Shown in pieces: positions 5,776-51,096 of a stretch of 64,000 nucleotides of DNA. The translations under genes were made by a program, and so were the position numbers. Position 1 is the stretch's first letter. Every line of letters starts with the position of its first letter. Under the pieces are notes generated by a model. It saw only the letters and a program-made list of their open reading frames with translations. It had not been told where the DNA came from and ran no database searches. Source of the DNA: Acidisarcina polymorpha (GTDB lineage: Bacteria; Acidobacteriota; Terriglobia; Terriglobales; Acidobacteriaceae); assembly GCF_003330725.1 (NCBI RefSeq), contig NZ_CP030840.1, positions 6,442,116-6,506,115 on the forward strand. Reading direction: 5' to 3'.

Positions 5776-7818
5776 TTGAAGCATTTTTCACTGCTGGCCT
5801 CGACTGCTCTCGCTCTCATGCTGACTTCTCACCTGGCGATCGCCGCTACCGAACTCCCCGCATTGATGCCGCTGCCTTCGACGATCAGCCAGGGCGATGG
5901 GAGTTTCCCGTTGACGGCCAGTTTCACGGTTGCGTATGCGACCCCGCCCGATGAGCGGCTGACTGCTGCAGTGAACAGGACGCTGACGCGGATGCAATAC
6001 AGCTCAGGCGTCGCGTTGGCGCATGCGGCAGTAGTCCCGTCCGCGGGAAGTTTGACCATCAGCGTCAGTGGGCCTGATGCCGCCGTGCAAGGTGTCGACG
6101 ACGATGAGTCCTATCACCTGGCGGTGACCGCACAAGGCATCCAACTCGCCTCAACAACGGTCGTTGGCGCGTTGCACGGCCTCGAAACGCTTCTGCAACT
6201 CGCAACATTTCGCGACGGCCACGCCATTATTCCTGCGGTGACTATCGATGATCAGCCGCGCTTTCGTTGGCGCGGCCTGATGATCGATGTCGCCCGTCAC
6301 TTCGAGCCGGTCGAGGTCATCAAGCGCAATCTCGATGCTATGGCATTGGTGAAGCTGAATGTCTTTCACTGGCATTTGAGCGACGATCAGGGTTTCCGCG
6401 CCGAGAGCAAGCGCTTTCCGAAGTTGACCGCAGAGGGCTCGCATGGCGAGTTCTACACGCAGGAGGAGATGCGCGAGGTTGTCGCCTATGCCCACGCACG
6501 AGGCATTCGGGTGGTGCCGGAGTTCGATATGCCAGGCCACACATTAAGCTGGCAAGTTGCCTATCCGGATATTGGCAGCACCTCCGGACCGTTCTCGCTT
6601 CCCGACCGGTTCGGCATTCATGATGAGGCTCTCGATCCTACTCGCGAGAGCACTTACAAGTTCCTTGATGCACTTGTCGGCGAGATGGCAGCGATCTTCC
6701 CGGATGCTTATTTCCATATCGGCGGGGATGAAAGTAATGGCAATGCCTGGCGGTCCAATCCGAAAATCGTCGCCTTTATGAAATCGCACGATATTAAGGA
6801 TACTGACGCCTTGCAGGTGTACTTCAATAGCAAGCTGCTGAAGATCGTCGCCAAGCATGGCAAGCACATGATCGGCTGGGATGAAGTCTTTACTCCCGGA
6901 TTGCCGAAGGACATCGTGATCGAATCGTGGCGAGGCCAGGAGTCGCTCTCGAAGGCAGCCGCACAAGGGTATCAGGGCATTCTCGCCGCACCCTACTATC
7001 TCGACGGGATGGCCACGGCGGAAAAGCATTTCCTCGCTGACCCGGTTCCAGCCGACACCCAGTTAACGCCGGAGCAACAGAAGAGCGTGCTCGGCGGCGA
7101 AGTGGCAATGTGGGCCGAGCAGATCAATCCGCAAACCATCGACTCGCGTATCTGGCCGCGGGCAGCGGCTATCGCCGAACGATTCTGGTCCCCGCAGAGC
7201 GATCGCGATGTCGAAAGCATGTATACGCGGTTGTGGCCGGTTTCCTTGCAGCTGGAGACAGTTGGCTTGACCCACATCTCCGGCCCGCAGAAGATGCTGC
7301 GGAACCTCGCGCAGTCGCAACAGCCGGCCGATCTGGACACACTCGCATCAGTTCTCGAACCGGTCAGCTTTCATGAACGGTACCAGGGACAACATACCGA
7401 TGCGCGAACCCCGCTCGACCGGCTAGTCGACGCCGTGGTGCCCGATCCGCCTTCGCGATTTGAGATGTCGCGGTCGGTCAATGAAGCGCTGGCCGACGGA
7501 GCAGCGGCAGGGTCAGCGCGAGAAGTATTGCGGCAACGTTTTCAGTCTTGGGTGGATGCGGCAGCGACACTGAATACGCTGATAAGCCTATCGCCCAGAA
7601 TGGCCGACGCCGCCCCCAGGGTGCAGCAGCTTGCTCAGCTTGGCCAAACAGGCTTGCAGGCCCTCAAGGCGCTCCCCGGCAAGACCGCGCCTGCTGGCTG
7701 GAGGGAACAGCAGACGCAAATCATCAACGAAGCAGCCAAGTCCGTCGCGCTCACTCGCTTCACTTTCCTACTATCCCTTCAGAAACTCGTTGATGCAGCG
7801 GGAGGCGCAATCCAGTGA
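5776..7818 (+). CDS. Beta-N-acetylhexosaminidase, glycoside hydrolase family 20
   Basis: The 680-residue secreted enzyme removes terminal GlcNAc or GalNAc by substrate-assisted catalysis. The start is TTG, supported by AAGGTGG seven bases upstream and by the signal peptide it creates (MKHFSLLASTALALMLTSHL). An N-terminal GH20b-like domain covers about 25-155. The catalytic barrel carries LNVFHWHLSDDQGFR, VPEFDMPGHTLSW and the Asp318-Glu319 pair in YFHIGGDES. GGEVAMWAEQ and AERFWSP close the active site. A helical C-terminal extension of roughly 180 residues follows. It overlaps the next gene by 4 bp, so the two are translationally coupled. With the GH18 fragment it suggests chitin or muropeptide turnover. 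Confidence 0.93.
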   Translation: MKHFSLLASTALALMLTSHLAIAATELPALMPLPSTISQGDGSFPLTASFTVAYATPPDERLTAAVNRTLTRMQYSSGVALAHAAVVPSAGSLTISVSGPDAAVQGVDDDESYHLAVTAQGIQLASTTVVGALHGLETLLQLATFRDGHAIIPAVTIDDQPRFRWRGLMIDVARHFEPVEVIKRNLDAMALVKLNVFHWHLSDDQGFRAESKRFPKLTAEGSHGEFYTQEEMREVVAYAHARGIRVVPEFDMPGHTLSWQVAYPDIGSTSGPFSLPDRFGIHDEALDPTRESTYKFLDALVGEMAAIFPDAYFHIGGDESNGNAWRSNPKIVAFMKSHDIKDTDALQVYFNSKLLKIVAKHGKHMIGWDEVFTPGLPKDIVIESWRGQESLSKAAAQGYQGILAAPYYLDGMATAEKHFLADPVPADTQLTPEQQKSVLGGEVAMWAEQINPQTIDSRIWPRAAAIAERFWSPQSDRDVESMYTRLWPVSLQLETVGLTHISGPQKMLRNLAQSQQPADLDTLASVLEPVSFHERYQGQHTDARTPLDRLVDAVVPDPPSRFEMSRSVNEALADGAAAGSAREVLRQRFQSWVDAAATLNTLISLSPRMADAAPRVQQLAQLGQTGLQALKALPGKTAPAGWREQQTQIINEAAKSVALTRFTFLLSLQKLVDAAGGAIQ

Positions 7819-8939
7819 CATTCCTTTCAATCCGTCGAAGAATATGCCTTTCCGCGATCGCGGCGGTGGGCCTCTCACTCCCCGCCGTTGCACAATCCAC
7901 CACTCCCCTGCAGGTAGCGGTCGTCGGCCTTGAACATGGCCATGTGGCCGGCTTCCTGCACGATCTGCCGCATCATCCTGAAGTTCAACTCGTAGCTATC
8001 GTTGAGCCCGACGCCTCGCTCTCGGCCAAGTACGAAGCCCAATACAAGCTCGACGCTTCGATCTTCTATACGAATACGGACGCGATGATCGCGGCTCGGC
8101 ACCCGCAGGCGCTGCTTGTCTATACCAGCATCGCCGGCCATCGAAAGGCGATCGAAGACGCTGCCCGCAACCACCTCACCGTCATGGTCGAGAAGCCGCT
8201 CACCATGTCTCTGGCCGACGCCATCGCCATTCGGGAAGCCGCGCGGAAAGCGAACATTCAGGTGCTGGTGAACTATGAAACGACCTGGTATTCCAGCAAT
8301 CGCGCCGTGTATGAACTAATCCAACAGGGCAAACTTGGCGATCTGCGCAAGGTGGTCATTCACGACGGCCATGAGGGCCCAAAAGAAATTGGTGTTCAGC
8401 CAGAGTTCCTGAAATGGCTCAAAGACCCGGAAAAGAATGGTGAAGGCGCGCTCTACGACTTCGGCTGCTATGGAGCCGATCTGATGACCTGGTGGATGCA
8501 TGGAGAAGCGCCGATTTCGGTGACCGCCGTCGGTCAGACCGACAAACCGGCAATTTATGGCAACGTCTACGATGACGCCACCATTATTTTGCGCTACCGC
8601 ACCGCCCAGGCGGTTCTAATGCCGTCATGGGACTGGTCTTTCGCGCGTAAGGATTCAGAGGTCTACGGAGTGAAAGGTTATGCGATTACCGTAGGCCCCA
8701 GCCACCTGAAGCTCCGTTTTGCCGGAGAGGCGGACGAGACTTCTTCTGAGGCACCGCCTTTGAATCCTCCGGACGATAGTTCCATGCACTATCTGGAGGC
8801 GGTTGTCAGCGGCCAGCTTACCCCGAAAGGCGACCTGACCGCGCTCGACACGAATATGGTCGTAATGCAAATACTCGACGCAACCCGCGAGTCGGCGAAG
8901 ACTGGAAAGACTATCGCTCTCAAGCCCCTGCCGCAGTGA
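7815..8939 (+). CDS. Gfo/Idh/MocA-family NAD(P)-dependent oxidoreductase, exported
   Basis: The 374-residue protein belongs to a family that oxidises or isomerises sugars and inositols with tightly held NAD(P). The GTG start overlaps the hexosaminidase stop (GTGA). The leader MTFLSIRRRICLSAIAAVG contains an arginine cluster and a hydrophobic stretch, consistent with export and possibly Tat, which folded cofactor enzymes of this family use. The Rossmann segment is VAVVGLEHGHVAGF, and the family Lys is in VMVEKPLTMS. Coupling to GH20 suggests the substrate is an amino-sugar released outside the cytoplasm, but that is inference. Its last 20 bp overlap the convergent HAD gene. Confidence 0.85.
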   Translation: MTFLSIRRRICLSAIAAVGLSLPAVAQSTTPLQVAVVGLEHGHVAGFLHDLPHHPEVQLVAIVEPDASLSAKYEAQYKLDASIFYTNTDAMIAARHPQALLVYTSIAGHRKAIEDAARNHLTVMVEKPLTMSLADAIAIREAARKANIQVLVNYETTWYSSNRAVYELIQQGKLGDLRKVVIHDGHEGPKEIGVQPEFLKWLKDPEKNGEGALYDFGCYGADLMTWWMHGEAPISVTAVGQTDKPAIYGNVYDDATIILRYRTAQAVLMPSWDWSFARKDSEVYGVKGYAITVGPSHLKLRFAGEADETSSEAPPLNPPDDSSMHYLEAVVSGQLTPKGDLTALDTNMVVMQILDATRESAKTGKTIALKPLPQ

Positions 8940-9543
8940 CCGAGACAGCTTTCGCTCTCTCCCACGGTTGGGGAATTTTCACGGACGCCATTCCCGCCGC
9001 AGTCGCCGCCTGGATGCCAATCTCCGTATCCTCAAAGACCAGGCAGTCCTCTGGAGCGATGCCAAGCCTCTTTGCGGCAGTGAGATATGGCTCGGGATGC
9101 GGCTTACTGTTCTGATAATCCTCCGCGCAGACCAGCGTCTCAAAGCGATCGAGGATTCCCAGAGTATTTAGCGACCTGGTCACCGAATCGCGGGTTCCGC
9201 CGGAAACGACGGCGAACGGAATTTTGCCATAGCTGGCATCGATATGCTCGATCACCTCGGGAACTGCCTCAAGCTGGTGGATGATCTCGTAGTAGTAGTC
9301 TTCCTTCTGGAGCGCGACAGCAGAGGGCGACATATCGAGACCCTGTTGCGTATTTAGCATCGCAACAATCTCTTCGGTCGGCATTCCGCCCAGCGAATAA
9401 TGCGTGCGCTCACTGAACTCGCAGCCGTGTTCGGCGAAGATCCGCTTCCAGGCAAGGTAATGCAACGGCATCGAATCGACGATCGTTCCATCACAATCGA
9501 AGAGGTAGGCTTTGAATGGGCCTTCAGGCAGTTTCAGTGTCAT
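8920..9543 (-). CDS. HAD-superfamily phosphatase, beta-phosphoglucomutase-like
   Basis: The 207-residue protein contains the HAD nucleophile motif YLFDCDGTIVDSMP near residue 15, a helical cap at about 25-85, the Ser/Thr motif VVSGGTRDS, the Lys motif NSKPHPEPY and the acidic motif VFEDTEIGIQAA. This order is that of subfamily IA enzymes such as sugar-phosphate phosphatases and beta-phosphoglucomutase. The exact substrate cannot be told from sequence. It lies tail to tail with the Gfo/Idh/MocA gene and overlaps it by 20 bp. Confidence 0.88.
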   Translation of the reverse strand: MTLKLPEGPFKAYLFDCDGTIVDSMPLHYLAWKRIFAEHGCEFSERTHYSLGGMPTEEIVAMLNTQQGLDMSPSAVALQKEDYYYEIIHQLEAVPEVIEHIDASYGKIPFAVVSGGTRDSVTRSLNTLGILDRFETLVCAEDYQNSKPHPEPYLTAAKRLGIAPEDCLVFEDTEIGIQAATAAGMASVKIPQPWERAKAVSVTAAGA

Positions 9544-9710
9544 AGGCTTATTTTCTCAAATGTGGATCCGGCAAACATCTTAGCTGTATATCTGACCCTC
9601 GAGATGAAGCGGCTTTGACTCGCCACAATTCCGACGCTTCAACTGGTCAGTAGCTTGACTGGTGAAATCAAGCGAGGCTGGACCATCCTCCGAACGCGGT
9701 ATCCTGAAGA

Positions 9711-10577
9711 GTGAAGCAAATGCTACAGTTCGTTGCTGTATTTGTGGTCTGCACCTTTGGGCTCGGCACCGCCTACTCTCAGCAATACGCCGCTGATCGG
9801 AAGGCACTCGGCTCAGCGGCGCAGAATGCTCCCGAGTACCTCAAGCACGCCGGCATTGACCAGAACCTGAACCACCCCCTGCCCCTAGCCGACCGTTTCG
9901 CCGACGAGAGCGGCGTAGACATGCCGCTCGGGCACTATTTCGGCAAGCATCCAGCCATGCTGGCGCTGGTCTACTTCAAATGCAGAATGCTCTGCCCGCA
10001 GGTCTTGCGGGGCATGGCCGCCTCCCTGAAACAGACAGGATTTCATCCCGGACACGAATACAACATCATCGTTGCCAGCATCGATCCCAGCGACACTCCC
10101 GCCGATGCTACCCAGGCGAAACAGGAGTTCCTGCAAAAGCTGGGTGTCCCAGCCACTGATCCCGCCGCTGCCAGCATCCATTTCCTGACCGGCCCGCAGG
10201 CATCTATCAATGATCTTGCTGCGGCCACCGGTTTCCACTACATCAGGGTTCCCGGTCCAGACGGACAGATGAACCAGTTCGCTCATTCCAGCGTGATCAT
10301 GATCGCGACACCAGATGGCCGGATGTCGAAGTACCTCAACGGCATCGACTACCAGCCGCGCGACGTTCGCCTGGCGCTGATCGAAGCCAGCAACGAACAC
10401 ATCGGTACGGCAACCGACGCGGTGCTGCTCTATTGCTGCAACTACACGCCTAGCGAAGGGCGCTATACTGTCTCCGTCTTGAGGATCATGGGATTAGCGG
10501 CCATGGGATCGGTACTGGCGCTGGGCACGGTAATATTCTTGCTGGGCAAAAAGCCAGCCTCGCAGCGTGCTTCCTGA
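9711..10577 (+). CDS. SCO1/SenC/PrrC-family copper chaperone
   Basis: The 288-residue thioredoxin-fold protein is probably anchored on the outer face of the cytoplasmic membrane and helps assemble the CuA centre of cytochrome c oxidase. The start is GTG, and the leader MKQMLQFVAVFVVCTFGLG is hydrophobic. The copper ligands are visible as Cys91 and Cys95 in VYFKCRMLCPQV and His192 in NQFAHSSVIMI. A second membrane helix near the C-terminus (MGSVLALGTVIFLLGKK) would anchor the domain from the other end. No oxidase genes are adjacent. In the family the first motif is often CPxxC; here it is CRxxC, a mild change. Confidence 0.88.
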   Translation: MKQMLQFVAVFVVCTFGLGTAYSQQYAADRKALGSAAQNAPEYLKHAGIDQNLNHPLPLADRFADESGVDMPLGHYFGKHPAMLALVYFKCRMLCPQVLRGMAASLKQTGFHPGHEYNIIVASIDPSDTPADATQAKQEFLQKLGVPATDPAAASIHFLTGPQASINDLAAATGFHYIRVPGPDGQMNQFAHSSVIMIATPDGRMSKYLNGIDYQPRDVRLALIEASNEHIGTATDAVLLYCCNYTPSEGRYTVSVLRIMGLAAMGSVLALGTVIFLLGKKPASQRAS

Positions 10578-10647
10578 CGCCTTCTTTCGTTTTCTCGCTG
10601 ACGGGGAAACTACACGGGTTGAGCTCATTGTTGTTTAGAGGTTTGAA

Positions 10648-11016
10648 ATGGAATCAGACTCTTCCAAGTTCTTAGAACCTACCCGTGCCGAGGATGTCCT
10701 TCTTTCCTTAGGCGAGAGGCTGGCATTGACCGCCAGTGCGAGCAACGTATACGGAAATCCCATCCAGGCATACGACCGCACGATCATACCGGTCGCCAAG
10801 TTCGGATATGGTCTTGGAGCAACCTCGGGCGGCCGTGACGGCGAGAACGTTGGCGGCGGCAGCGGCGGCGGCGGAGTGGGCGCCAAGCCCGCGGGCTACC
10901 TTGAGATTAGCGAAGCAGGCACCCGCTATGTGGCCTTCTCTACGCCGCGGCAGGTGCTCCTTGCCGCCGTTGCCGGGTTAGCAGCCGGCTATCTGCTCGC
11001 CCGTCTCCGGAGCTGA
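10648..11016 (+). CDS. GerW-family (YtfJ-like) protein
   Basis: The 122-residue protein resembles the GerW/Spore_YtfJ family. A helical start is followed by GNPIQAYDRTIIPVAKFGYG, a Gly-rich loop (GGGSGGGGVGAKPAGYLEIS) and a C-terminal hydrophobic segment (VLLAAVAGLAAGYLLARL) that could anchor it to the membrane. In Bacillus the family is linked to spore germination. Acidobacteria are not known to sporulate, so the role here must differ and is unknown. The start follows a short AGAGG sequence. Confidence 0.75.
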   Translation: MESDSSKFLEPTRAEDVLLSLGERLALTASASNVYGNPIQAYDRTIIPVAKFGYGLGATSGGRDGENVGGGSGGGGVGAKPAGYLEISEAGTRYVAFSTPRQVLLAAVAGLAAGYLLARLRS

Positions 11017-11208
11017 CCGAGATGGTGATGAACTATGGGAATGAATCGCTCGATTCCTGTAAGCTCCCTTGCGATGGAAAGTATCCCGGTATCGCATCGA
11101 GAATAGTCTGAGGTTGAAGGCGCTACGAGAAAGAAGCTGAACCGATTTTGGTTTGTCCCCAAAGCGCCATAGGAGAGTTCTGCGGGCTGCCAAGCCCTCG
11201 AAATAGTT

Positions 11209-11256
11209 TTTGACTCTCCCCTTATTTGACTCTCCCCTTAGAGGAGGCCTTACAAC
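11209..11256 (+). promoter_or_regulatory. Tandem 16-bp repeat and MerR-type promoter of the MerR gene
   Basis: TTTGACTCTCCCCTTA occurs twice head to tail (11209-11224 and 11225-11240). The second copy supplies a -35 TTGACT (11226-11231) and is followed by an imperfect dyad CTCC-N-GGAG and a -10 TACAAC (11251-11256). The 19-bp spacer is the extended spacing typical of MerR-activated promoters. The -10 lies only six bases before the ATG, so the transcript would be leaderless. Confidence 0.6.
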
Positions 11257-11262
11257 CACCTC

Positions 11263-12066
11263 ATGCTCAGAATCGGCGATTTCTCCAGCCTCTCGCAGGT
11301 CTCCATCAAGACCCTCCGCTACTACGATGAGCAGGGATTGCTCCCACCGGCTAGTGTCGATGGCGTCACCGGCTACCGATATTATGCCGTTGCGCAACTG
11401 CCTCGCCTGCACCGCATTCTGGCGCTTCGTGACCTCGGTTTCTCGCTCGACCAGATCGCAAGCATCCTGAATGACGGCATCGGCGCGGAGCAGCTGCGAG
11501 GGATGCTGCTCCTCCGGCAGGCGGAGCAGCAGGCGAGAGTGGAGGAAGAGCAGGCACGCCTGGCGCGGCTGCAAGCACAACTGAGCCTTATAGAAAAGGA
11601 GCAGGACATGACCAATGAAGTGGTAATCAAACAAGTTCCCGCACAGTGGATTGGATCGGTGCGCGAGACCATCCCCAACTACCCCGCAGTCGGACGGCTC
11701 TACGGCGAAGTCGCGGAAGCGCTGCCACCCGGATCCTTTGGTATAAGCCTCGCCATCTGGCACGATCGCGAACATCGTGATAAAGATGTGGATGCCGAGG
11801 CCGGCTTCTTGCTGAAAGAGCCAATCACGGCTTCGGGTCGGGTTCGAGTGCATGAACTGCCGCCAGCCACGGTAGCCAGCACACTTCATCATGGCGCCTA
11901 CAACCGCCTGTCCGAAGCCTATGACGCTCTATTGCGTTGGCTTGGCACCAGCGGGTATAGCGTCGTTGCGCCGGTGCGGGAGCTTTACCTGCAGATGTCG
12001 CGGCCAGTGCGTATGGATGACGAATCGTACATCACCGAGATCCAGTTGCCCGTAGCGAAGGCCTAA
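11263..12066 (+). CDS. MerR-family regulator with GyrI-like effector-binding domain
   Basis: The 267-residue protein has an N-terminal winged helix-turn-helix (residues 1-70, with VSIKTLRYYDEQGLLPP and GYRYYAVAQL), a Gln/Glu-rich coiled coil at about 80-115 for dimerisation, and a C-terminal AraC/GyrI-type effector domain (about 120-265, with HHGAYNRLSEAY). The layout is that of BmrR-type multidrug sensors, which bind small lipophilic compounds and activate efflux genes. No pump gene adjoins it, so the target may be elsewhere or only itself. The promoter directly upstream has MerR spacing and a duplicated operator-like element. Confidence 0.9.
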   Translation: MLRIGDFSSLSQVSIKTLRYYDEQGLLPPASVDGVTGYRYYAVAQLPRLHRILALRDLGFSLDQIASILNDGIGAEQLRGMLLLRQAEQQARVEEEQARLARLQAQLSLIEKEQDMTNEVVIKQVPAQWIGSVRETIPNYPAVGRLYGEVAEALPPGSFGISLAIWHDREHRDKDVDAEAGFLLKEPITASGRVRVHELPPATVASTLHHGAYNRLSEAYDALLRWLGTSGYSVVAPVRELYLQMSRPVRMDDESYITEIQLPVAKA

Positions 12067-12088
12067 ACAGACGGACGCCCAACAAGGC

Positions 12089-12115
12089 GATAGGGAGCCA
12101 CGGTGGCTCCCTATC
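12089..12115. terminator. Bidirectional hairpin between convergent genes
   Basis: A perfect 12-bp stem (GATAGGGAGCCA pairing with TGGCTCCCTATC) surrounds a three-base loop, in the spacer between the MerR gene and the convergent BON-domain gene. No T-run follows, so it may act as an mRNA-end stabiliser as well. Confidence 0.65.
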
Positions 12116-12141
12116 GGCAACAAGGATCAACGACGAAACGG

Positions 12142-13488
12142 TTAGTACCGGTAGTAGTAATACGGGTAGTACGCCGCCGGGTAACGATAGGGGTAGTAGT
12201 ACCCCGGAGGCGGCGGAGGCGGATAGTACCCATACGGGTACGGACCGCGAGGGCGCAACTGCGGCTGTTGCGGATATGTGCTTGAGGCGAGCCGCTGAGC
12301 TTCCTGCGGAGACACTGGCGTCACCGTTACCGGAGCAGTGAGGTGGAAATTGACGACTGCCTCTGCAGGCAGGTACATGCGCGGGCCGGTGGTCGCGGCG
12401 GAGGCGCCGGCGCCGACTGCACCACCAACTCCAGCGCCGATCGCGGCGCCAGTACCACGTCCAGCGATGCCACCGATGATCGCACCTAGCGCAGCGCCGC
12501 CGATGGTATTTCCAGCGGTATACCCAGCCTTACCCGGGCCCTGCCCATTCCAGGTGTCGGTAGGCAATGGATAGGATTGCCCGCCGAGGTTTACGCTCGT
12601 CAACTGCAGGGATAGACCCTGCTTGCCGGCAAGGTCACCCTGGTTGGATTTCGTCGCCACGACTCTGCCGGTAATGACCGCGCCCCGCGGGATCACCAGA
12701 ACATTGCCCTGGTAGATATCAGCAGCTAGCGTCGCTTGGAAGACCTGGCCGGGCTGCACCTTAGTGGCGTCCAAGGGCTCACTGGTTCTGACCTGGAGGA
12801 GTGTCCCCGACGGCACTGTCACCGGACCAGACGGAGCCTGGGGCGCATAATTTGGCTGCTGCTGTCCGTAAGACTGTTGTCCATACTGCTGCTGCGGCGG
12901 GTACGGCTGCTGCGACGGATATTGCTGCTGTTGCGACGGATATTGCTGTTGTTGCCCCGCTTGAGGAGGCGGCATCGGTTGCTGCTGATCTTGTTGCTGC
13001 TGGGCCTGATTCTGATCGTCTCCTGCGGCTGGCGGTCCGGCCGGAGCCAGGTTTTGCTGTGCCGGGTCGTAGTTCGGGTCCTGCTGCTGGCTGGCATTTG
13101 GATCGGCTGCCTGAGCGTCAGCCGAAGCCGGAGCCGCATCGCCAATGGTCAGGTTGTTCGTAACTGACCGTACACCGTTGACCCGGTAGACCAGCGACTC
13201 GGCAAGTTCCTTCGATGCCGCGTCCCTGACATGCCCGGAGATCGTGACGTCGCCTTCCACCGTCGCCGCGGTAATTGCCTGACCTTTCAAAGCAGCCGAA
13301 TTAGATATGGCATAGGCCACATCACTCTGAATGTCGGCATCGGCACGGCTAGCGGCCTGTGCCGGTTGCCCCCATGCCTGAGGAGTAGCCACTGCGGCAG
13401 TAAGCCCGGTCGACAGCATCGCCGCCAGAGCCAGTCGCGCGCTCAGGCGCGTGAAATTGAATTCTTGGTTAACCCGTTCGCCCAACAT
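12142..13488 (-). CDS. BON-domain, Gln-rich, glycine-zipper envelope protein
   Basis: The 448-residue exported protein has four parts. After a signal region ending near ATPQAWGQ comes a BON domain (about 48-118, with GDVTISGHVRDAASKELAES), a fold that binds lipids or membranes. A low-complexity Gln/Pro stretch (about 130-220) contains repeats of QQYPSQQ. A beta-rich domain follows (VTVPSGTLLQVRTSEPL and IPRGAVITGRVV), as in TrbI/VirB10-like or conjugal-porin repeats. A glycine zipper (AALGAIIGGIAGRGTGAAIG) and a Tyr/Pro-rich tail end it. Such architecture suggests an outer-membrane-associated structural protein; the specific role is unknown. A GGAGAG site supports the start. Confidence 0.8.
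   Translation of the reverse strand: MLGERVNQEFNFTRLSARLALAAMLSTGLTAAVATPQAWGQPAQAASRADADIQSDVAYAISNSAALKGQAITAATVEGDVTISGHVRDAASKELAESLVYRVNGVRSVTNNLTIGDAAPASADAQAADPNASQQQDPNYDPAQQNLAPAGPPAAGDDQNQAQQQQDQQQPMPPPQAGQQQQYPSQQQQYPSQQPYPPQQQYGQQSYGQQQPNYAPQAPSGPVTVPSGTLLQVRTSEPLDATKVQPGQVFQATLAADIYQGNVLVIPRGAVITGRVVATKSNQGDLAGKQGLSLQLTSVNLGGQSYPLPTDTWNGQGPGKAGYTAGNTIGGAALGAIIGGIAGRGTGAAIGAGVGGAVGAGASAATTGPRMYLPAEAVVNFHLTAPVTVTPVSPQEAQRLASSTYPQQPQLRPRGPYPYGYYPPPPPPGYYYPYRYPAAYYPYYYYRY
12911..12952. repeat. Two tandem 21-bp repeats inside the Gln-rich linker
   Basis: The units at 12911-12931 and 12932-12952 differ at one base and encode the QQYPSQQ heptads on the minus strand. Because the unit length is a multiple of three, copy-number change would lengthen or shorten the linker without breaking the frame. 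Confidence 0.75.
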
Positions 13489-33039: not shown

Positions 33040-33244
33040 GAGACTTGGGCTGATCCTCATGCGACACGCATGTGCGAGCGGGATGCGTACGCAGGGCGCC
33101 GACATTCACACCGTCGCTCAACTCCTCGGCCACAAGGATCTGCGAATGGCCGCGCTATCAACATCTGTCGGCGGGCTTCCTTGGGGATGCGGTGGGAAGG
33201 CGGATTCGATCTTTGGGGACCGGCGAAACTCACCGCTAAAATCG
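33040..33244 (+). pseudogene. Tyrosine recombinase (integrase) C-terminal relic, left copy
   Basis: This stretch matches the 3' end of the right-hand integrase (50810-51007) closely at DNA level, including TQGADIHTVAQLLGHKDLRM with the conserved LLGHK box. Small indels break it, for example GCGCGC shortened to GCGC after LRMAA, so the catalytic Tyr region is out of frame. It ends in the same junction sequence that runs into the tRNA-derived repeat. It is the remnant of a separate element of the same family. Confidence 0.8.
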
Positions 33245-33305
33245 TGAAAACGACATTTGGTAGCGTCAACGGGGATCAAACCCGTACTCTCCGCCTTGAG
33301 AGGGC
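33245..33305. repeat. Left attachment repeat (partial tRNA-Glu copy)
   Basis: These 61 bp match 51008-51068 with one change (A for G in the T-loop). Positions 33257-33305 correspond to the 3' part of tRNA-Glu, from the CCA end to the anticodon stem. The match stops abruptly after that. It is the expected product of site-specific integration into the tRNA gene. Confidence 0.88.
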
Positions 33306-42205: not shown

Positions 42206-42856
42206 TCAGTCCGGCTTGAACTTCATTTGAGTCTCCTGAGCGACCCCGTTTCGCTTTGCCATTGTTTGTCGCAATCTAGATCGAGCACGATGCAGTCGAG
42301 ATTTGACTGCTGGTTCTGAAAGACCTATGGCGGTTGCGATCTCCCGGATACTAGCCTCTTGGTGAAATCGACTACCTATAATTCCGCGTAGAGACGCAGG
42401 CAAAACGCTGATGGCATGAAGTAGAGCGTGATGTTGCTCAGCGGCCGATACGAGATCTTCTGGAGAAGGAGAGTCCGTAGCCACATCCATCAAGAAGCTT
42501 TCTTCCGATTCGATGGGGAACGTCAAGAGACGATTGATCCCACTTCGCCTGCGACGCAGTTGCATCAATGCGAAGTTAATCCCAATACGGTTAAGCCACG
42601 TCGAAAACGTGCTCGTCTGTTTGAAGAAAGGGAGATTGATGAAGGCCTTGATCAAGCTCTCTTGAACGACATCCTCTGCATCCTCTGTGTTGTGGAGTAT
42701 TCGCATCACAGTGCGAAAGACCTGCCTAGAATGTCGTCGGCATAGCTCCTGATATGCGTCACCGTCACCCTGCAGAGCAGCGCTAATCAGCGTGGTTTCG
42801 CCCGCGCGAACGCTCTCCCGCATCGGTAGAAATCCGGGTGTTGTCTTATCCTCCAT
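42206..42856 (-). CDS. ECF-type sigma-70 family RNA polymerase sigma factor
   Basis: The 216-residue sigma factor contains region 2 (DAYQELCRRHSRQVFRTVMR, DAEDVVQESLIKAFINLP, STFSTWLNRIGINFALMQL) and region 4 (VLPASLRGIIGSRFHQEASI, REIATAIGLSEPAVKSRLHR). The start at 42856 follows GAGGAAG at good spacing; an in-frame ATG at 42886 is less likely. No cytoplasmic anti-sigma with a zinc motif adjoins it. It is last in a minus-strand run with a flavin reductase, an alpha/beta hydrolase and a small membrane protein, which may be its regulon or sensor. Confidence 0.9.
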   Translation of the reverse strand: MEDKTTPGFLPMRESVRAGETTLISAALQGDGDAYQELCRRHSRQVFRTVMRILHNTEDAEDVVQESLIKAFINLPFFKQTSTFSTWLNRIGINFALMQLRRRRSGINRLLTFPIESEESFLMDVATDSPSPEDLVSAAEQHHALLHAISVLPASLRGIIGSRFHQEASIREIATAIGLSEPAVKSRLHRARSRLRQTMAKRNGVAQETQMKFKPD

Positions 42857-42954
42857 GCGCTTCCTCACTAGTGCAGCCGATGGCAAAGTTGTGATGAATA
42901 GAGACCGTCTCCGTCGAGCCGAGGCGGTATTGATTCAAACATGCGTCGTGCTGG

Positions 42955-44364
42955 TTAGGACGATGTCGGGACTGAAGAAAACAGTGAGCCTAATCCTTCA
43001 GCGAACGTTGGGTGGGCAATCATCAGATCGCGGAGTGCGGTGTAAGGGAGGCCTCCGAGCATAGTGATCTGCACGCAAGTCATGACGTCGCCTGCGCCTT
43101 GACCAAACATCGAGAATCCCAGGATGCGGTCAGTCCGACATTCGACCAGGCACTTCATGAAACCTCGGGTTTCCATTACGCTCTGCGCTCTCAAGACCTC
43201 CGCCATAGGGATCTTGAATAGGCGGTAGTCAAAACCTTTCGCCACAGCTTCCTTTTCGCTGAGTCCGACTCTTGCGAACTCAGGGTCTGTGAAGAGGCAG
43301 AACGGCACCTGCCTTCCTGTGGTGGTGCGTTCACCCCCCAGCAGATTGTCATGGACAACGCGAAAGTCGTCGACGCTTACGTGGGTAAATCGAGGGCTTC
43401 CGGCGACCTCACCGACAGCCCAGACTCCCGGAGCTGTCGTCCGCAACCGATCGTCAACTTTGACGAAGCCCTCATGGCTAAGTTCGATACCCGCAGTTTC
43501 GAGTCCAATGTCTCTGGTATTCGGCATCCTTCCGGCTGCAACTAATAGGTGTGTCCCCGCGATCGCCATGGGGCTACCAAGAACCTCGACATGGAGTAGC
43601 ACAGATTTCCCTGAGACCCCAGAGACGCCATTGATTTTCGCATTGAGGACAAGTTCAATGCCTTCTTCAATAAGAAGAGAATGCAATCCTTCAACGACGT
43701 CTTCATCCTCATGGTGGAGAACGTGACTATTGTGGTCAATCACCGTGACTCTGCTACCGAGCCTGCGCATAGCCTGCGCAAATTCCAGCCCAACATAGCC
43801 GGCACCCAAGATCACGAGATGTTCTGGTAATACGTCCAGCTCGAGTGCCTCAACATGAGTGAGGGGCCGCGCAGTGAGCATGCCTGGGATGTGGTCATCG
43901 ATTTTCGCATGCGTTCCGGTACCGATGATGACGTTTTCTCCGCGTAGCATTCGCGTCGTGCCATCGTTGAGTTCGACCTTAAGTGTCTTCGCCGCCGTGA
44001 ACGCCCCTGATCCCATGATCAGTTCCGCGCCGCTTCCCTTGTACAACGCGAGATGGGCATCGACGAGACCTTTGACCATCGTTCGCTTCCGATCTGTCAC
44101 GCGCGGCATCTCTACGGCAAAGCCATCAGAACAAGCCGAGCGAAACACTCCACTTCGACGGGCATCGGACACAATTTGAGCGGTATGGATCAAGTTCTTG
44201 CTGGGCAAGCACGCGATGTTCGGACACGATCCTCCAACATATTTCCGTTCAATGACTGCGACTCTTTTTCCGCTTCCTGCAAATGTCCATGCCAGCAGCT
44301 TCGAGCCAGCGCCGCTCCCTAAAATGACGAGGTCGTAATCCTCAATCTGGGTCTGAGACTCCAT
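42955..44364 (-). CDS. Class I pyridine nucleotide-disulfide oxidoreductase (mercuric/dihydrolipoamide reductase-like)
   Basis: The 469-residue flavoenzyme has an FAD site (DYDLVILGSGAGSKLLAW), the redox-active Cys47 and Cys52 in YVGGSCPNIACLPSKNL, a NAD(P) site (HLVILGAGYVGLEFAQ), a second FAD motif (VWAVGEVAGSPRFTH) and the C-terminal active-site AHPTFAEG with His and Glu. All catalytic residues are therefore present. It lacks both the N-terminal HMA domain and the C-terminal Cys pair of MerA, so mercury reduction is not supported; the disulfide substrate is unknown. The start at 44364 has a strong GGAGGA site. It lies 28 bp from the hydrolase gene upstream. Confidence 0.9.
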   Translation of the reverse strand: MESQTQIEDYDLVILGSGAGSKLLAWTFAGSGKRVAVIERKYVGGSCPNIACLPSKNLIHTAQIVSDARRSGVFRSACSDGFAVEMPRVTDRKRTMVKGLVDAHLALYKGSGAELIMGSGAFTAAKTLKVELNDGTTRMLRGENVIIGTGTHAKIDDHIPGMLTARPLTHVEALELDVLPEHLVILGAGYVGLEFAQAMRRLGSRVTVIDHNSHVLHHEDEDVVEGLHSLLIEEGIELVLNAKINGVSGVSGKSVLLHVEVLGSPMAIAGTHLLVAAGRMPNTRDIGLETAGIELSHEGFVKVDDRLRTTAPGVWAVGEVAGSPRFTHVSVDDFRVVHDNLLGGERTTTGRQVPFCLFTDPEFARVGLSEKEAVAKGFDYRLFKIPMAEVLRAQSVMETRGFMKCLVECRTDRILGFSMFGQGAGDVMTCVQITMLGGLPYTALRDLMIAHPTFAEGLGSLFSSVPTSS

Positions 44365-44392
44365 CGCTTTTGTCCTCCAAGATGATCCTTCA

Positions 44393-45121
44393 TTAGTTCG
44401 AGACTGCACGGGCCGCCTGTTCGATTGCATCAGCCACAACGTCCGGGTGGGAGACAGTTACGGCATGCGAGGAATCGACTTCAAGTACATGAGCATGGGC
44501 GCGATCTGCTTCGAATTTCTGCTCTTCGAGGGGTATCGCGAGATCCCGGAGGGTTCTGACCTGCCAGCTTGGCTTGGTTTCCCAACCGGCGACCGTCACT
44601 TTCTGATTTAAGGCAGCTAGATTCATAGGGCGTTGAGTGATGAACATGAGTGCGGCGTCACTGTCGGGTACATCTGCGGCGACGTTGTTGTTAAACTTGT
44701 CAGCTTGGTAGAGCAGATATGTGCCATTCGTTCCGTCGGGGAGCATATAGTTAACCGGTTCGACCGACGTCGGGAATGTGCTGTCAGGAAAGCGTTCGAG
44801 CAGATCGGTTGCGGCTTCCCCGGGCGCTGGCATGATAGCGGCGGCGTATACCAGGGCTTTGACCTTGGGGTCCTCTGCGCCAGCCTGGGTAATTACAGCT
44901 CCGCCGTAGGAGTGAGCCGCCAAGATGATGGAACCTTGAATTCTATTCAACACGCTTCGCAGGTACGCTGTGTCGACTGCCACTCCGAGTAGCGGATTTG
45001 CGAAGGCAATGACAGGAAAGCCCTCACGCCGAAGCCGCGGGATCACGCCACTCCAGATCGACGAATCTTCGAAGGCCCCGTGTACGAGAACAATGGTGGG
45101 CCTTTGCCCATGAGATTCCAT
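44393..45121 (-). CDS. Alpha/beta hydrolase
   Basis: The 242-residue protein opens with the oxyanion motif TIVLVHGAFEDSSIW and has the nucleophile Ser in IILAAHSYGGAVITQAG, with a candidate catalytic His in EVDSSHAVTVSHPDVV. It resembles the small esterase-like hydrolases often induced with redox or stress genes. No signal peptide is seen. It is second in the putative four-gene operon ending in the ECF sigma factor. Confidence 0.87.
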   Translation of the reverse strand: MESHGQRPTIVLVHGAFEDSSIWSGVIPRLRREGFPVIAFANPLLGVAVDTAYLRSVLNRIQGSIILAAHSYGGAVITQAGAEDPKVKALVYAAAIMPAPGEAATDLLERFPDSTFPTSVEPVNYMLPDGTNGTYLLYQADKFNNNVAADVPDSDAALMFITQRPMNLAALNQKVTVAGWETKPSWQVRTLRDLAIPLEEQKFEADRAHAHVLEVDSSHAVTVSHPDVVADAIEQAARAVSN

Positions 45122-45178
45122 GATGAATTTATCTCCGTAGTCTTGATACGTTTGTGCTGCTGTAGGGAAAAAGCTGGC

Positions 45179-45472
45179 TCACGCGTTGGTTCTGCTCTCG
45201 GCAAGCATCGCCGTTTGACCGTGATAGCTGATGAAGTAAAGCGAAACGCCGAAAGACATTACATCCTTGAACAGAGAAAGCCCTAGGCTATTCATGGAGT
45301 GCAACCCTTTACACTCGATCGTCGCTCCCGGCGTGGAAAGCAGCATGGTGCCGGTGACGAAGTAGATCGGCGTCGTTATAAGGGCTCCAACCAGACACGT
45401 TGATAGGCGAGTGAGCGGAACGTTAGCCACCAACTCATCGTGTAACTTCTGACGGGAGGACGTACCCTTCAT
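45179..45472 (-). CDS. Small two-helix membrane protein of unknown function
   Basis: The 97-residue product starts at 45472, where GAAGGTGG precedes the ATG. Two hydrophobic segments (LVGALITTPIYFVTGTMLL and LGLSLFKDVMSFGVSLYFI) flank a short loop with a Cys (GATIECKGLHS); another Cys sits before the first helix (RLSTCLVG). I do not recognise the family. It is first in the run that ends with an ECF sigma factor, so a sensing or anti-sigma-like role is possible but unproven. Confidence 0.6.
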   Translation of the reverse strand: MKGTSSRQKLHDELVANVPLTRLSTCLVGALITTPIYFVTGTMLLSTPGATIECKGLHSMNSLGLSLFKDVMSFGVSLYFISYHGQTAMLAESRTNA

Positions 45473-46084: not shown

Positions 46085-46708
46085 GTGGGTAAATCGATCA
46101 TGTCTATGCTCCAATCTCAGTACAAAGCTGTTCGCTCACTTACGGCTTCGTTGGGAGTGAATCTATCGGTCGAAGATCAGACGATGCAAGCGCCTCCCGA
46201 AACAAACTCGATGAAGTGGCGACAAGCTATGCCGACCGGGTTCCTCGAGAACTTCGTCTTGCGGCCCTATCTCTTCGACCACGGCATCTATGAAGAGAAA
46301 CTACAGCAATTCTTTACAAGCTATTACCACTCGCTGAACGGCGGGACTCCACGGGAATATCTGCAGAGGTCATTGTCCCGGCCGTCTCTTCAAGAAATTC
46401 GGGACTTTCGAGCGCACCTAGATGAAGAGGTAGATCAGCTGCTTGAAAGTGACGTCGACTCGCAAGTTGATGCCTGTGGCATTTTGCGAGGTATTAACGC
46501 GAACAGCGTCATCAGCGCTTGCTTCGGCGAATACGAAGCATCTGTTTTTCTCAAAGCCTCTCCGACCGACGTACGAAGAACCGTGGCTTCCGGTTGAACC
46601 GACCCGGCTTGCTAAGTGGCTCAGTGCGAGGGTGGTCTTGCGGAGGTCGGGCGCTCCTATTTGTCCTATGAACCCCCGACCATCATCGATGAAATGGAAC
46701 GCCTTTAA
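46085..46708 (+). pseudogene. Frameshifted relic of an EgtB-type ergothioneine sulfoxide synthase, DinB_2 part
   Basis: Frame 1 gives EgtB-like sequence: TGFLENFVLRPYLFDHGIYE, then LQQFFTSYYHSLNGG, SRPSLQEIRDFRAHLDEEVD. After about 46500 the frame changes and NTKHLFFSKPLRPTYEEPW follows, the usual continuation after the HEQQHQE metal motif. The DNA between still resembles that motif in yet another frame (EQRHQRLL), so at least two indels are present. A last piece, EGGLAEVGRSYLSYE, returns to frame 1 and stops at 46708. The first iron-ligand His region reads MPTGF instead of the usual HTxWF. The C-terminal FGE-sulfatase-like domain is absent. Confidence 0.7.
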
Positions 46709-46733: not shown

Positions 46734-47141
46734 ATGCTGGTTCAGTCCGGAACGAGAACATCTCATCGAATACTGTGCGTCGACGACGAGGTCGTTGCCA
46801 CAACACTACGAGCCGAAATCCTTCGCGAACACGGTTACTCGGTCAGTCTGTTTCATTGCCCTTTTAAGGCACTTGAAAGTGATCTTTCTGCAGTGGACCT
46901 TGCGCTACTCGACTTTCACATGCCGGGGATGAATGGCCGCGAACTCCTACTGCGCATGCGGGCCTTCGGTGTGCCGTATCCAATACTTCTATTAACAGGA
47001 TGCTTAGAACTACTCTCCTACGAAGATCGTGTGCTTTTCTCGCGATGCTTAGACAAGGGAAAGCCCGTTCAAGATTTACTCGACAGCATCTGGAAGTTCC
47101 TGGACCCCGATGAAACGCCAGATTGGGGATGCCGCAAATGA
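46734..47141 (+). CDS. Single-domain response regulator (receiver protein)
   Basis: The 135-residue protein is a receiver domain alone. It has the acidic pair in RILCVDDEVV, the phospho-acceptor Asp60 in LALLDFHMPGMNG, the switch Thr88 in ILLLTGCLELL and the conserved Lys108 in RCLDKGKP. An AGGGGAG site lies seven bases before the ATG. There is no output domain and no kinase nearby, so it may modulate an orphan kinase or act by protein contact. It starts 25 bp after the EgtB relic and may have taken over its promoter. Confidence 0.87.
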   Translation: MLVQSGTRTSHRILCVDDEVVATTLRAEILREHGYSVSLFHCPFKALESDLSAVDLALLDFHMPGMNGRELLLRMRAFGVPYPILLLTGCLELLSYEDRVLFSRCLDKGKPVQDLLDSIWKFLDPDETPDWGCRK

Positions 47142-48067: not shown

Positions 48068-48407
48068 TCAAGACAGTTCTTGCTCTTTGATGTTCGCGAT
48101 CGGGAGGAGCATCGTGACGTCAAATGCCTTCGACGAAAAGCCTGATGCCAGAGTGAGAGGGAAGGCTGGGTTTGCGAGAGCCGTGCGGGTCACGAAGCGG
48201 TTCCCTTGGCATGTCGCTCCAGCGTGCATCAGCGGGGCGATGGCTACAGCACCATGTCTCTTAATTCCCTTAACAATCGGCTCCCACGCTTCTGCTTGAG
48301 CTTTATCAGTGATGCCTCGCTGGTGGTGATAGGTCTGCGAGAACGCTATAGATGCTCCCAATTTGGACATGGTCGAAAACGGAGTTGCCGCTAAATGCTG
48401 TGCTCAT
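48068..48407 (-). pseudogene. Old Yellow Enzyme (NADH:flavin oxidoreductase) relic with internal deletion
   Basis: A good ribosome site (AGAGGTG) precedes ATG 48407. The first frame reads SVFDHVQIGSI, the expected start of an OYE barrel, then runs into a stop. The other frame from 48370 continues with GASIAFSQTYHHQRGITDKA and QAEAWEPIVKGIKRHGAVAI, then APLMHAGATCQGNRFVTRTA, which belong roughly 60-110 residues into the family. The intervening piece and the C-terminal two-thirds are missing. The gene was thus shortened by an internal out-of-frame deletion and a 3' loss. Confidence 0.75.
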
Positions 48408-48481: not shown

Positions 48482-49402
48482 CTACTCAGTTGTGTTCTCT
48501 CGAAGATGACTGTAAGCAGCCGGAACGTTGACCGTCCTGTGTGCCCATTCGAAGAGGCTATAGTCGCCGTAGTGAGCCATCGCAACTGCATCCTGAGTTT
48601 CCTCTGCGGAGCGTCCCTCATCGATCGCTCTTCGCACCGAGCCGTCAAGTTCACGAAGATAGTTGAGAGGAAAGTCAATGTCCGACGGGCGCATGGGCTT
48701 GCCGTGTCCGGGAATGATGGTCGCATCCTCGGGAAGGAATGCCTTCACGCGACTTAGAGTTTCAATCGTGTCGTGATGCCGGCCTTCCAGGAGCCAGGGG
48801 AGAGCGGGAGAAGGTGCTTGAATCATGTTGCCCACCCATAGCACTTTGGCATCGGGTACCCAAACAACGAGGTCGCCCGGTGTTTGGGCGAAGCCGAGAT
48901 GCCGAACTTCGACCTTTCGACCCCCCAAATCAATTGTGATCATTTCGGGGACCACGACGTCAGCGCTGCGTGAGTGAACCCGTTCGATGCCTTTACCTCT
49001 GCCCATCAGGCCGAGCATGAAAGTGCGGTCCTCTTCAAAATGTTCATCCATGTACCGCTTGGTGGCGGGATGCTGAACGACGACCGTACTCTCCGGGAAG
49101 ACATAATTGCCGTACGCGTGATCTCCGTGATAGCTCGTGTTTACAAGAAACCGAATGGGCTTGCTTGTTTTCTTCCGCACAAGACCAATGAGCTGCGAAG
49201 CGAGATCGCCATTCAGCATGGATTCGATCACCAGAACCGCCCGCTCCCCGATCACGAACCCTGCTGTCGTGGCCACGTGGTCTTTGTCGAAGACGTCGTC
49301 TGGCAGTACCGCTAAGACACCAGGAGATAGTTCCTTCGACGTTAGGTTTACAAGAGAGGCATCCCACGGAGGTGTAGCTGCTCGATCATTGTCGTTGCTC
49401 AT
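48482..49402 (-). CDS. Metallo-beta-lactamase-fold protein with altered metal site
   Basis: The 306-residue protein has the MBL layout: VATTAGFVIGERAVLVIES, NTSYHGDHAYGNYVFPEST, TPGDLVVWVPDAKVLWVGN and IIPGHGKP. Three usual ligands are changed: the first His of HxHxDH is Ser90, the second-motif His is Gln173 (GFAQTPGD) and the bridging Asp is Asn192 (WVGNMIQ). His92, Asp94, His95 and the PGHG His remain. It may bind one metal or none. The start at 49402 has AGGAG; an ATG at 49423 is less likely. Quinoprotein relay-type and hydrolytic MBLs are the nearest relatives. Confidence 0.85.
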   Translation of the reverse strand: MSNDNDRAATPPWDASLVNLTSKELSPGVLAVLPDDVFDKDHVATTAGFVIGERAVLVIESMLNGDLASQLIGLVRKKTSKPIRFLVNTSYHGDHAYGNYVFPESTVVVQHPATKRYMDEHFEEDRTFMLGLMGRGKGIERVHSRSADVVVPEMITIDLGGRKVEVRHLGFAQTPGDLVVWVPDAKVLWVGNMIQAPSPALPWLLEGRHHDTIETLSRVKAFLPEDATIIPGHGKPMRPSDIDFPLNYLRELDGSVRRAIDEGRSAEETQDAVAMAHYGDYSLFEWAHRTVNVPAAYSHLRENTTE

Positions 49403-49875
49403 TGTTGTTTCTCCTATCGTCATGGTTTCTGCTCATGGATCGCGCCGAGCTTTGTCGTTCGGCTAGCTCGCGGGCAGTTGGTCGGTCAGCTCACAGTCCA
49501 GGAGAATAGCCCCGGTACGATGCCTTCTCGCAGGTTAGTGCAATTCCTTTCGATCCCGCCGCTGATCTGGGTGCCGCCCAATCTGAATCCGTAACGCTCT
49601 GGCCTAACGGCTCATCTTCCGGTCATCGCCGAGATAGATAGACCAAGACACTCGTGAGCGTCATGCTGCAAGCGAATGGCCAACTTACACGCTGGCGGGA
49701 GCAATCGAACTAAGCCGCGTAACATATACGAACGAAGCACGTTACTGAACGTGAGGACAGAACACGGCCTGTCGGTTCCGACGGATTGATGACAGCATTT
49801 CGCCACTGACGGCGTCCCGTCGCGGGCCGCCGCCGGGCAGCAGTTCGATAGGGGGCCAAGCCTTCCGGCTGAGAT
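49403..49875. other. 473-bp spacer without a recognised gene
   Basis: Short frames only. It separates the MBL gene from the sigma-54 regulator relic and presumably includes the MBL promoter. Confidence 0.4.
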
Positions 49876-50044: not shown

Positions 50045-51007
50045 AGACGGCACGGATTAGAGCCTGGACAGTGGTTGATGGCTGGCGAAGACGAAGCGGC
50101 AGGATGGACGAGATGGTGACGAAGGGATATGCCGAGCCGGTGAAAGCGTCCTTCGCTTCCCTGCTACCGCACTACCTGAAGCACCAGAAGCCAAGGCTGA
50201 GACAGCGCAGCTATGAACGAACATCAGGCATTGTCGAGAACCAATTACGTCCATTCTTTGGCTCGATGCCGATGGCCAGCATTCGCAGAGCGGAGATCCA
50301 GGAGTATGTGACAGAGCGTGCAGGGCAAATCTCGGCCGGCGGCGTCACAAAGGAGCTGAATGTCCTCAAACACCTGCTGGGCTTGGCCTTGAATGGAAAT
50401 TGATTCTGGTGAATCCGGCAGTGAAGATCAAAGCGCCCAGTGTGCCCGCTGGTCGACTTCGCTATCTGCAGCCTACGGAATTACGAGCGTTGCTTGTAGA
50501 TTGCCCTGATTGGCTCCGACCGATCGCGGGCCTGGCGGCCTTTACTGCCATGCGACGGGCCGAAGTACTAAGTCTTCGCTGGCGCGACGTGGACATCAAC
50601 GGGTCGCGCATTCCGTTACCGCAAACGAAGAATGGCGACGGTCGCACGTGTACCTAAATCAATTAGCCGCCAACGTACTCAAGAGCCATGGACCACTAGC
50701 GTGCACCCGACAGATAGGGTGATTGCGCTCGCCGAAGACTGCACTCCCGACAACGTCAGCAAGGGATTCGCGACCGTCTGCCGTCGGCTGGAGATCGACG
50801 ACTTCAGATTCCACGACCCGAGACACACGGCTGCGAGCTGGATGCGTATGCAGGGCGCCGACATTCACACCGTTGCTCAACTCCTCGGCCACAAGGAACT
50901 GCGAATGGCGGCGCGCTATCAACAACTGTCGCGGGCTTCCTTGGGGGATGCGGTGGGAAGGCTGGATTCGATCTTGGGGAACCGGCGAAACTCACCGCTT
51001 CAAGCGG

Positions 51008-51096
<89 letters not shown>

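Follow-up and report, generated by a model that had tools for sequence, protein, structure and literature searches.

We analyzed four minus-strand genes in a 64,000-nucleotide stretch of the Acidisarcina polymorpha genome (contig NZ_CP030840.1, positions 6,442,116 to 6,506,115; here, the window). They code for a small membrane protein, an alpha/beta hydrolase, a flavin disulfide reductase and an extracytoplasmic function (ECF) sigma factor. An earlier note on this DNA had taken them for a self-contained redox module with the small protein as its sensor. That protein appears instead to be an internally deleted member of the DUF417 (RclC/RcrB) family from which about 76 central residues were lost in frame. 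The reading that we favor, by a modest measure, is that this island-borne copy is a decaying oxidant-defense operon of the RclA/RclC type, one for which the window offers no AraC gene and beside which lies an orphan ECF gene that perhaps controls it. We regard the locus as known components in an unusual variation rather than as a sensor module of a new kind. The genome harboring the window comprises 7.6 Mb in 5 contigs, and the four genes are as follows.

45179-45472, minus strand: gene of the small protein, apparently DUF417 derived (97 aa if begun at ATG, 120 aa if begun at the GTG at 45541)
44393-45121, minus strand: alpha/beta hydrolase gene (Pfam Abhydrolase_6)
42955-44364, minus strand: RclA-like flavin disulfide reductase gene (469 aa, longer TTG start at 44439; Pyr_redox_2 and Pyr_redox_dim)
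42206-42856, minus strand: orphan ECF sigma factor gene (216 aa when read from ATG, with a TTG at 42886 as a longer alternative; Sigma70_r2 and r4)

The 97-residue protein matched no Pfam and no NCBIfam model at E ≤ 0.001. Its relatives, 25 matches in 17 of 200 genomes of the family (itself included), are mostly open frames of 180 to 230 codons, and two intact ones were recognized as DUF417 (PF04224; 78 and 80 bits). Translated from its longer start, the window protein reached 15.7 bits with this profile over positions 109 to 170 only, below the 27-bit gathering score of the 175-position domain. In tblastn searches its C-terminal 76 residues were 58 to 62% identical to intact DUF417 relatives of 181 to 190 residues (45409-45182; E values of 6.7e-25 and 8.8e-27), which establishes the homology. 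A weaker match to the N termini of the relatives (residues 1 to 29, E 0.036; residues 6 to 38, E 0.001) lies at 45490-45392, in the same frame as the C-terminal part, and the central part of the two intact queries matched nothing anywhere in the window. An in-frame loss of about 76 codons is therefore likely, as both ends of an intact DUF417 protein are found in one frame and its center nowhere in the window. The DUF417 relatives are in turn homologous to RclC. A new protein family was ruled out, the indication of DUF417 being weak with Pfam and strong with the relatives.

The two cysteines of the small protein, at residues 26 and 54, have no counterpart in the proteins of genomes G116 and G094, both of which are cysteine free; among 12 intact DUF417 relatives scanned, five had no cysteine, six had one, and one had three. 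The ratio of nonsynonymous to synonymous differences (pN/pS) in the C-terminal part, which rests on 76 codons and hence on little data, was 0.48 between the window and G116, 0.37 between the window and G094, and 0.23 between G116 and G094. Between the window and G116, it was 0.12 for the hydrolase, 0.19 for the reductase, and 0.08 for a metallo-hydrolase described below. Because the DUF417 remnant exceeds these three enzymes, we read the pattern as that of a membrane protein in decay next to enzymes that are maintained; the deletion may have cost the protein its function. A DUF417 protein that lacks its middle, whose cysteines are absent from its two nearest intact relatives and whose constraint is weaker than that of its neighbors, is a poor candidate for the cysteine-based sensor proposed earlier. 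Its description as a two-helix protein held in part, with one hydropathy stretch above threshold (approximately residues 14 to 45) and a second one below it. AlphaFold prediction of one DUF417 relative without an alignment gave a pLDDT of 47 and was not used.

Synteny with relatives supplies the order from which the window copy may have derived. In the closest syntenic cluster, that of G116, an AraC regulator gene is followed by genes for a metallo-hydrolase (90% identical), an intact DUF417 protein, an alpha/beta hydrolase (85%), and a reductase (81%). Similarity to the window at the nucleotide level (blastn) runs from 45388 to 42968, i.e., up to the reductase end, and the 16 kb examined from G116 yielded no ECF gene. 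That the nearest relative holds the core genes, the metallo-hydrolase gene and an AraC regulator gene but no sigma gene contradicts the idea of a self-contained sigma module. G094 similarly has an AraC gene, a metallo-hydrolase gene (89%) and a DUF417 gene. In G157, an intact EgtB-like gene and a response regulator gene lie upstream of a run of genes on one strand for two hydrolases, an SDR, a TMEM175-like protein, an ECF factor, DUF417, and a reductase; the ECF gene there, located between the TMEM175-like channel gene and the DUF417-reductase pair on the same strand (stretch 6155-9830 of locus L118), differs from that of the window. A second case of a broken DUF417 gene, split over two frames, occurs in locus L127 of G040 (9314-9871), directly after an RclA-like reductase gene.

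The four genes follow one another on the same strand with gaps of 57, 28, and 98 bp, values that we recomputed from the ends of the open reading frames (ORFs) and that agree with those given previously; the run thus has the operon-like layout described. For an ECF-type promoter, a crude pattern scan of the minus strand between 42000 and 46200 found a sole site, inside the reductase gene, and established no shared upstream motif. Other features of the surroundings are listed here.

48482-49423, minus strand: metallo-beta-lactamase-fold hydrolase gene, which precedes DUF417 in relatives and lies about 3 kb from it here
46100-46676, plus strand: remains of an EgtB-like gene, spread over two frames, both of which the intact protein of G157 matches (tblastn E 6e-34)
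46764-47123, plus strand: response-regulator receiver domain, 60% identical to the gene following the EgtB-like gene in G157
48068-48370, minus strand: old yellow enzyme (NADH:flavin oxidoreductase) family fragment, weak (20.9 bits; cut-off of 27 bits)
33063-33305, plus strand: left island end, a direct repeat of an integrase 3' end and the 3' part of tRNA-Glu
50822-51067, plus strand: right island end, where the 3' end of an integrase gene overlaps the minus-strand tRNA-Glu at 51020-51096

The broken gene is presumably of the EgtB type, on the Pfam evidence from the intact G157 protein. Together with the response-regulator domain, an ABM monooxygenase gene and the sub-cut-off old yellow enzyme fragment, it lies in the approximately 3 kb that separate the metallo-hydrolase gene from the DUF417 remnant. 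No relative of two AraC query proteins was found within the 64-kb window (best E of 0.33). The repeats at the island ends are about 93% identical and 17.76 kb apart. Because an integrase 3' end and part of tRNA-Glu are thus repeated on both sides, the location of the four genes within a tRNA-Glu island of about 17.8 kb is supported, in agreement with the earlier note. This island also carries an RND efflux operon and genes for a KDPG aldolase, a DsrE protein, and a GNAT protein, and the integrase gene beside the right repeat is broken into three ORFs.

The reductase gives the gene set the redox theme previously ascribed to it. Its catalytic motifs are preserved: the CXXXXC pair reads CPNIAC, and in the C-terminal part an H-P-x3-E motif aligns with that of RclA (6kgy). 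It starts a few residues ahead of the FAD motif, has no N-terminal metal-binding domain, and it has no cysteine pair at the C terminus. It therefore displays the features of RclA: a flavin-proximal CXXXXC pair, a C-terminal His/Glu pair, and no metal domains of the MerA kind. A mercuric reductase was rejected, as it had been before, with a score of 318.8 bits against the MerA cut-off of 454.45 (TIGR02053). The closest solved structures are 6kgy (E 1.5e-80) and 6kod, identified as RclA entries by comparison with the sequence of K-12 RclA, followed by 8uub, 8ajj, and 8ajk, which we take to be hypothiocyanous acid reductases. The alignment with Escherichia coli K-12 RclA shows 35% identity across 465 columns (E 6e-85), and relatives of the reductase at E ≤ 1e-60 were present in 81 of the 200 family genomes. 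The protein resembles the RclA group most, yet it is not classed as RclA.

We determined whether these genes are linked elsewhere by comparison with 40 control windows of 15 kb, drawn at random from nine of these genomes, counting genes within 5 kb of the center. The test sets comprised 36 reductase loci and 20 DUF417 loci besides the window. Among the 25 DUF417 matches, one at a contig edge and three weak ones (E above 7e-4) were left out, as were, among reductase relatives of at least 50% identity, that of G162 (contig edge) and the partial hits G072:C161 and G118:5769844. The P values are rough, as loci share genomes, some of the hidden Markov models (HMMs) were built from test loci, a few reductase loci lie on short contigs, and nine of the genomes supply all controls. 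DUF417 was found near the reductase at 7 of 36 loci, in one case as a gene broken over two frames, versus none of the controls (P = 0.004). Hydrolase (HYD) genes occurred at 9 reductase loci (P = 0.004) and 8 DUF417 loci (P = 0.0004) versus 1 control, SDR genes at 7 (P = 0.004) and 6 (P = 0.0008) versus none, and genes for a dehalogenase-like hydrolase (ABH2) at 8 and 7 versus none. AraC genes of any kind were present at 2 reductase loci (P = 0.65) and 8 DUF417 loci (P = 0.001) versus 2 controls, those of RclR-like AraC proteins (phmmer E ≤ 1e-12) at 1 and 4 (P = 0.01 for the latter) versus none, and AhpD/carboxymuconolactone decarboxylase (CMD) genes at 2 (P = 0.2) and 4 (P = 0.01) versus none. 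For ECF genes, the counts were 3 (P = 0.45) and 4 (P = 0.09) versus 2. The enzyme and membrane genes are therefore linked well above chance, in a minority of loci, and the co-occurrence in other genomes that the earlier note proposed as a check is borne out for the hydrolase, the reductase, and DUF417, but not clearly for the ECF gene. In a second estimate, 3 same-strand sigma genes were seen within 4 kb of the 20 DUF417 loci versus 0.44 expected from per-genome Sigma70_r2 counts (P = 0.01). Taken together, the link of ECF genes to these loci is suggestive only.

Paralogs in the source genome itself and plasmid-borne relatives also bear on the RclA/RclC affinity. On contig C4, a gene for a DUF417 protein 55% identical to RclC adjoins that of a 52% reductase paralog, with an RclR-like AraC gene (26%, E 2e-17) approximately 1.1 kb upstream. 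Locus L159 on this contig (G000:C4:86000-100000, 4576-9669) reads RclR-like AraC, RclA-like reductase, DUF417, and then a dehalogenase-like hydrolase split in two ORFs. ABM and HYD genes likewise lie near a paralogous reductase gene in the source genome. Among 72,556 plasmid records, 36 had a reductase match at E ≤ 1e-100, with identities of 51 to 54% among the 15 matches listed; the relatives on NZ_CP083955.1, AP028202.1, and NZ_CP120363.1 are labeled mercuric reductase. We examined six plasmid neighborhoods from other soil bacteria, five of them annotated. An AraC gene, in one case a short fragment, lies within 1 kb in four of the five, and the three full-length AraC proteins align along RclR (25 to 28%, E values of 8e-28 to 4e-38), a similarity that does not by itself prove orthology. 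At two plasmid loci, a gene labeled carboxymuconolactone decarboxylase or peroxidase-related enzyme is located between regulator and reductase, and one locus adjoins a ring-cleavage dioxygenase gene. Neither DUF417 nor ECF genes were detected in the six plasmid loci.

The sigma factor carries the domains of an ECF protein (Sigma70_r2, 53.1 bits with a cut-off of 24; r4, 35.3 with 24.1; TIGR02937, 87.8 with 42.9), and, as noted earlier, no anti-sigma domain was recognized in the neighboring ORFs tested. At E ≤ 1e-44, only one relative besides itself was found among 396 genomes of the phylum; distant kin are common, with some match at E ≤ 1e-30 in 186 of the 200 family genomes, and the plasmid records contained no match at this latter threshold. 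A scan of the genome collection with two peptide patterns returned as the best match the ECF factor of Granulicella sp. S190 (G167), the only close relative found, at 55% identity; the next was 40% identical. In Granulicella, DUF417 is approximately 5 kb and an RclA-like reductase gene approximately 3 kb away from the ECF gene; both stand on the other strand, and other genes intervene. A copper-sensing factor of the CorE type was ruled out, as the window protein has no cysteine-rich C terminus.

In a tree of ECF proteins, that of the window falls in a supported clade of 10 rows (96/94) with five of the seven ECF factors preselected for nearness to DUF417 or reductase genes, a grouping that is partly built in by this choice; the preselected factors L118 and L117_2167 lie outside the clade. 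Of the four other rows that the genome collection contributed to this clade, L184 (Acidobacteriaceae JOPF079) alone shows a possible reductase remnant, seen by eye and not by HMM. At that locus (9908-13132), the ECF gene is followed by an SDR gene, an enoyl-CoA hydratase-like gene, and the apparent truncated N terminus of a reductase. In a profile search of 27 genomes, the top five matches were the profile-building loci or the window itself. Distances were computed for listed matches on contigs carrying a target or looking likely to, and outside the top five, 1 of 65 such matches came within 15 kb of DUF417 or of a reductase with an identity of 50% or more. This match, G000:C1:282107, has a 53% reductase paralog at a distance of 6.7 kb. 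The clade was not retained as a dedicated Rcl regulator, as it is partly built in and the profile search did not extend the link.

We propose that the window genes originate from an Acidobacteriaceae oxidant-defense cluster of the RclA/RclC kind, composed of an AraC regulator, metallo-hydrolase, DUF417, alpha/beta hydrolase, and flavin disulfide reductase, whose order in G116 may be the older one. With NAD(P)H and its FAD/CXXXXC center, the reductase would reduce an oxidized target, be it an oxidant of the hypohalous or hypothiocyanous kind, Cu(II), or some other electrophile that reacts with thiols, and an intact DUF417 protein would work next to it at the inner membrane. The island copy would then have decayed by the deletion in DUF417 and by separation of the metallo-hydrolase gene, now about 3 kb away beyond broken genes, and would be without its AraC gene, with an orphan ECF gene now placed after the reductase. 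If the ECF gene is co-transcribed, its product might boost expression or redirect it with no anti-sigma factor involved, its own abundance being the control.

Several observations weigh against this interpretation. The reductase reaches 339.9 bits with the RclA model NF040477, whose cut-off is 740; its best NCBIfam model is that of an unnamed FAD oxidoreductase (PRK06370, 371 bits), LPD (324) and MerA (319) score nearly as high as RclA (340), and all lie under their cut-offs. The DUF417 protein of contig C4 also misses the RclC cut-off (243.6 versus 275 bits). No DUF417 gene was present within 5 kb at 29 of 36 reductase loci and no RclR-like AraC gene at 35 of 36. The solved relatives of the alpha/beta hydrolase are esterase-like, and such an enzyme is not a known Rcl component. 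The frame of the small protein is still open and in frame. In addition, the AraC protein of G116 aligns with RclR in its C-terminal part only (E 1e-7), and in the fifth annotated plasmid neighborhood, heavy-metal P-type ATPase genes adjoin the reductase relative and no AraC gene is found. The last two points, together with the nonsignificant control test for ECF genes, slightly lowered our confidence in an RclA/RclC-type operon and slightly raised that in the passenger view of the ECF gene given below and in a rival view. In the latter, the cluster is directed not at reactive chlorine but at electrophiles of an aromatic or quinone-like nature (or at metals), which it would help to degrade or to tolerate. 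We consider this possible, though rather unlikely. It would account for the recurrence of SDR, dehalogenase-like ABH2, and HYD genes near reductase or DUF417 (0, 0, and 1 of 40 controls, respectively) and of AhpD/CMD and ABM monooxygenase genes around the cluster, including the ABM and HYD genes by the paralogous reductase, for the ABM gene and weak old yellow enzyme fragment of the window, and for the plasmid loci by a ring-cleavage dioxygenase gene or metal ATPases. RclR-like regulators and DUF417, which the available text of reports on E. coli and Pseudomonas aeruginosa ties to defense against HOCl and HOSCN (PMC12096828, PMC9600549, PMC7950407), recur as well, however. As the two defenses overlap, the two readings are not exclusive.

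The place of the sigma factor is a separate matter. Its gene may be a passenger with no relation to the cluster, transcribed from a promoter of its own within the 98-bp gap while the cluster is transcribed without it, which we rate somewhat short of even and which is compatible with either oxidant or electrophile defense. The width of this gap, the end of G116 homology at the reductase end, and the rarity of close relatives (2 of 396 genomes at E ≤ 1e-44, its own included) are consistent with it, and the nonsignificant control test for ECF genes raised its standing; the nearest relative nevertheless occurs in the analogous Granulicella sp. S190 cluster, and the gene shares the strand of the window reductase. 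It is improbable that the ECF factor replaced the AraC activator of an RclA/RclC-type operon while the shortened DUF417 protein works as a mini-RclC or as a sigma-holding membrane partner. We give hardly any credence to the self-contained module in which the 97-residue two-cysteine membrane protein would sense redox stress and control the sigma factor. Although the genes share a strand with short gaps, membrane protein and ECF factor lie in one unit with no other anti-sigma among the neighbors tested, the nearest ECF relative belongs to a DUF417/reductase cluster, and same-strand ECF genes exceed expectation (3 of 20 loci versus 0.44; P = 0.01), the presumed sensor is a DUF417 deletion product whose cysteines its nearest relatives lack. 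The closest syntenic cluster has no ECF gene, the control-window test was not significant (P = 0.09 for DUF417, 0.45 for the reductase), and the profile search placed just 1 of the 65 other listed matches near a target.

In Acidobacteriaceae, which are soil bacteria, RclA-like reductases are repeatedly accompanied by DUF417 proteins, including the 55% RclC relative on contig C4; the pair in the window is probably an instance in decay. If confirmed, these would be independent natural pairings of both proteins, useful for finding the function of DUF417, and would suggest that the defense serves more than encounters with host immunity. The available text of one report describes RclC as a protein without a known role (PMC12096828). 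According to the accessible part of another, the full rclABCR locus is confined to certain enterics, and RclA occurs almost wholly in bacteria of epithelial surfaces (PMC7527725). We found no paper joining RclA with Acidobacteria in the open-licence literature.

Among known systems, the nearest is rclABC-rclR of E. coli, with which the window shares an RclA-like reductase (35%), an RclC-homologous DUF417 protein, and, in relatives, an AraC-family regulator. In contrast to that operon, it has an alpha/beta hydrolase and a metallo-hydrolase, no RclB-type gene that we noticed, a broken DUF417, and an ECF gene; no RclR-type AraC gene is linked to the reductase, and the RclA and RclC cut-offs are missed. 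In rcrARB of uropathogenic E. coli, RcrB is likewise a DUF417 inner-membrane protein under dedicated regulation, whereas the operon regulator is the repressor RcrR, no reductase is named in the text available (PMC9600549), and DUF417 is truncated in the window. The RclR-RclX system of P. aeruginosa, as far as the accessible text describes it (PMC7950407), pairs an RclR-type AraC regulator with an AhpD/CMD enzyme and so resembles, by labels, the neighbors of the plasmid reductases, but the window cluster has neither an AraC nor an AhpD gene. MerA belongs to the same flavoprotein superfamily and has a CXXXXC center; it differs from the window reductase in its N-terminal metal-binding domain and C-terminal cysteine pair, and its model gives 319 of the 454 bits needed. 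Finally, the window sigma factor resembles the orphan ECF factors covered in the available part of a published account (PMC8999054) in having ECF regions 2 and 4 and no adjacent anti-sigma gene. At 216 aa it lacks a long extension of the C terminus, and its DAED motif is preserved, so it is neither of the extension type nor of the ECF43 phosphorylation type.

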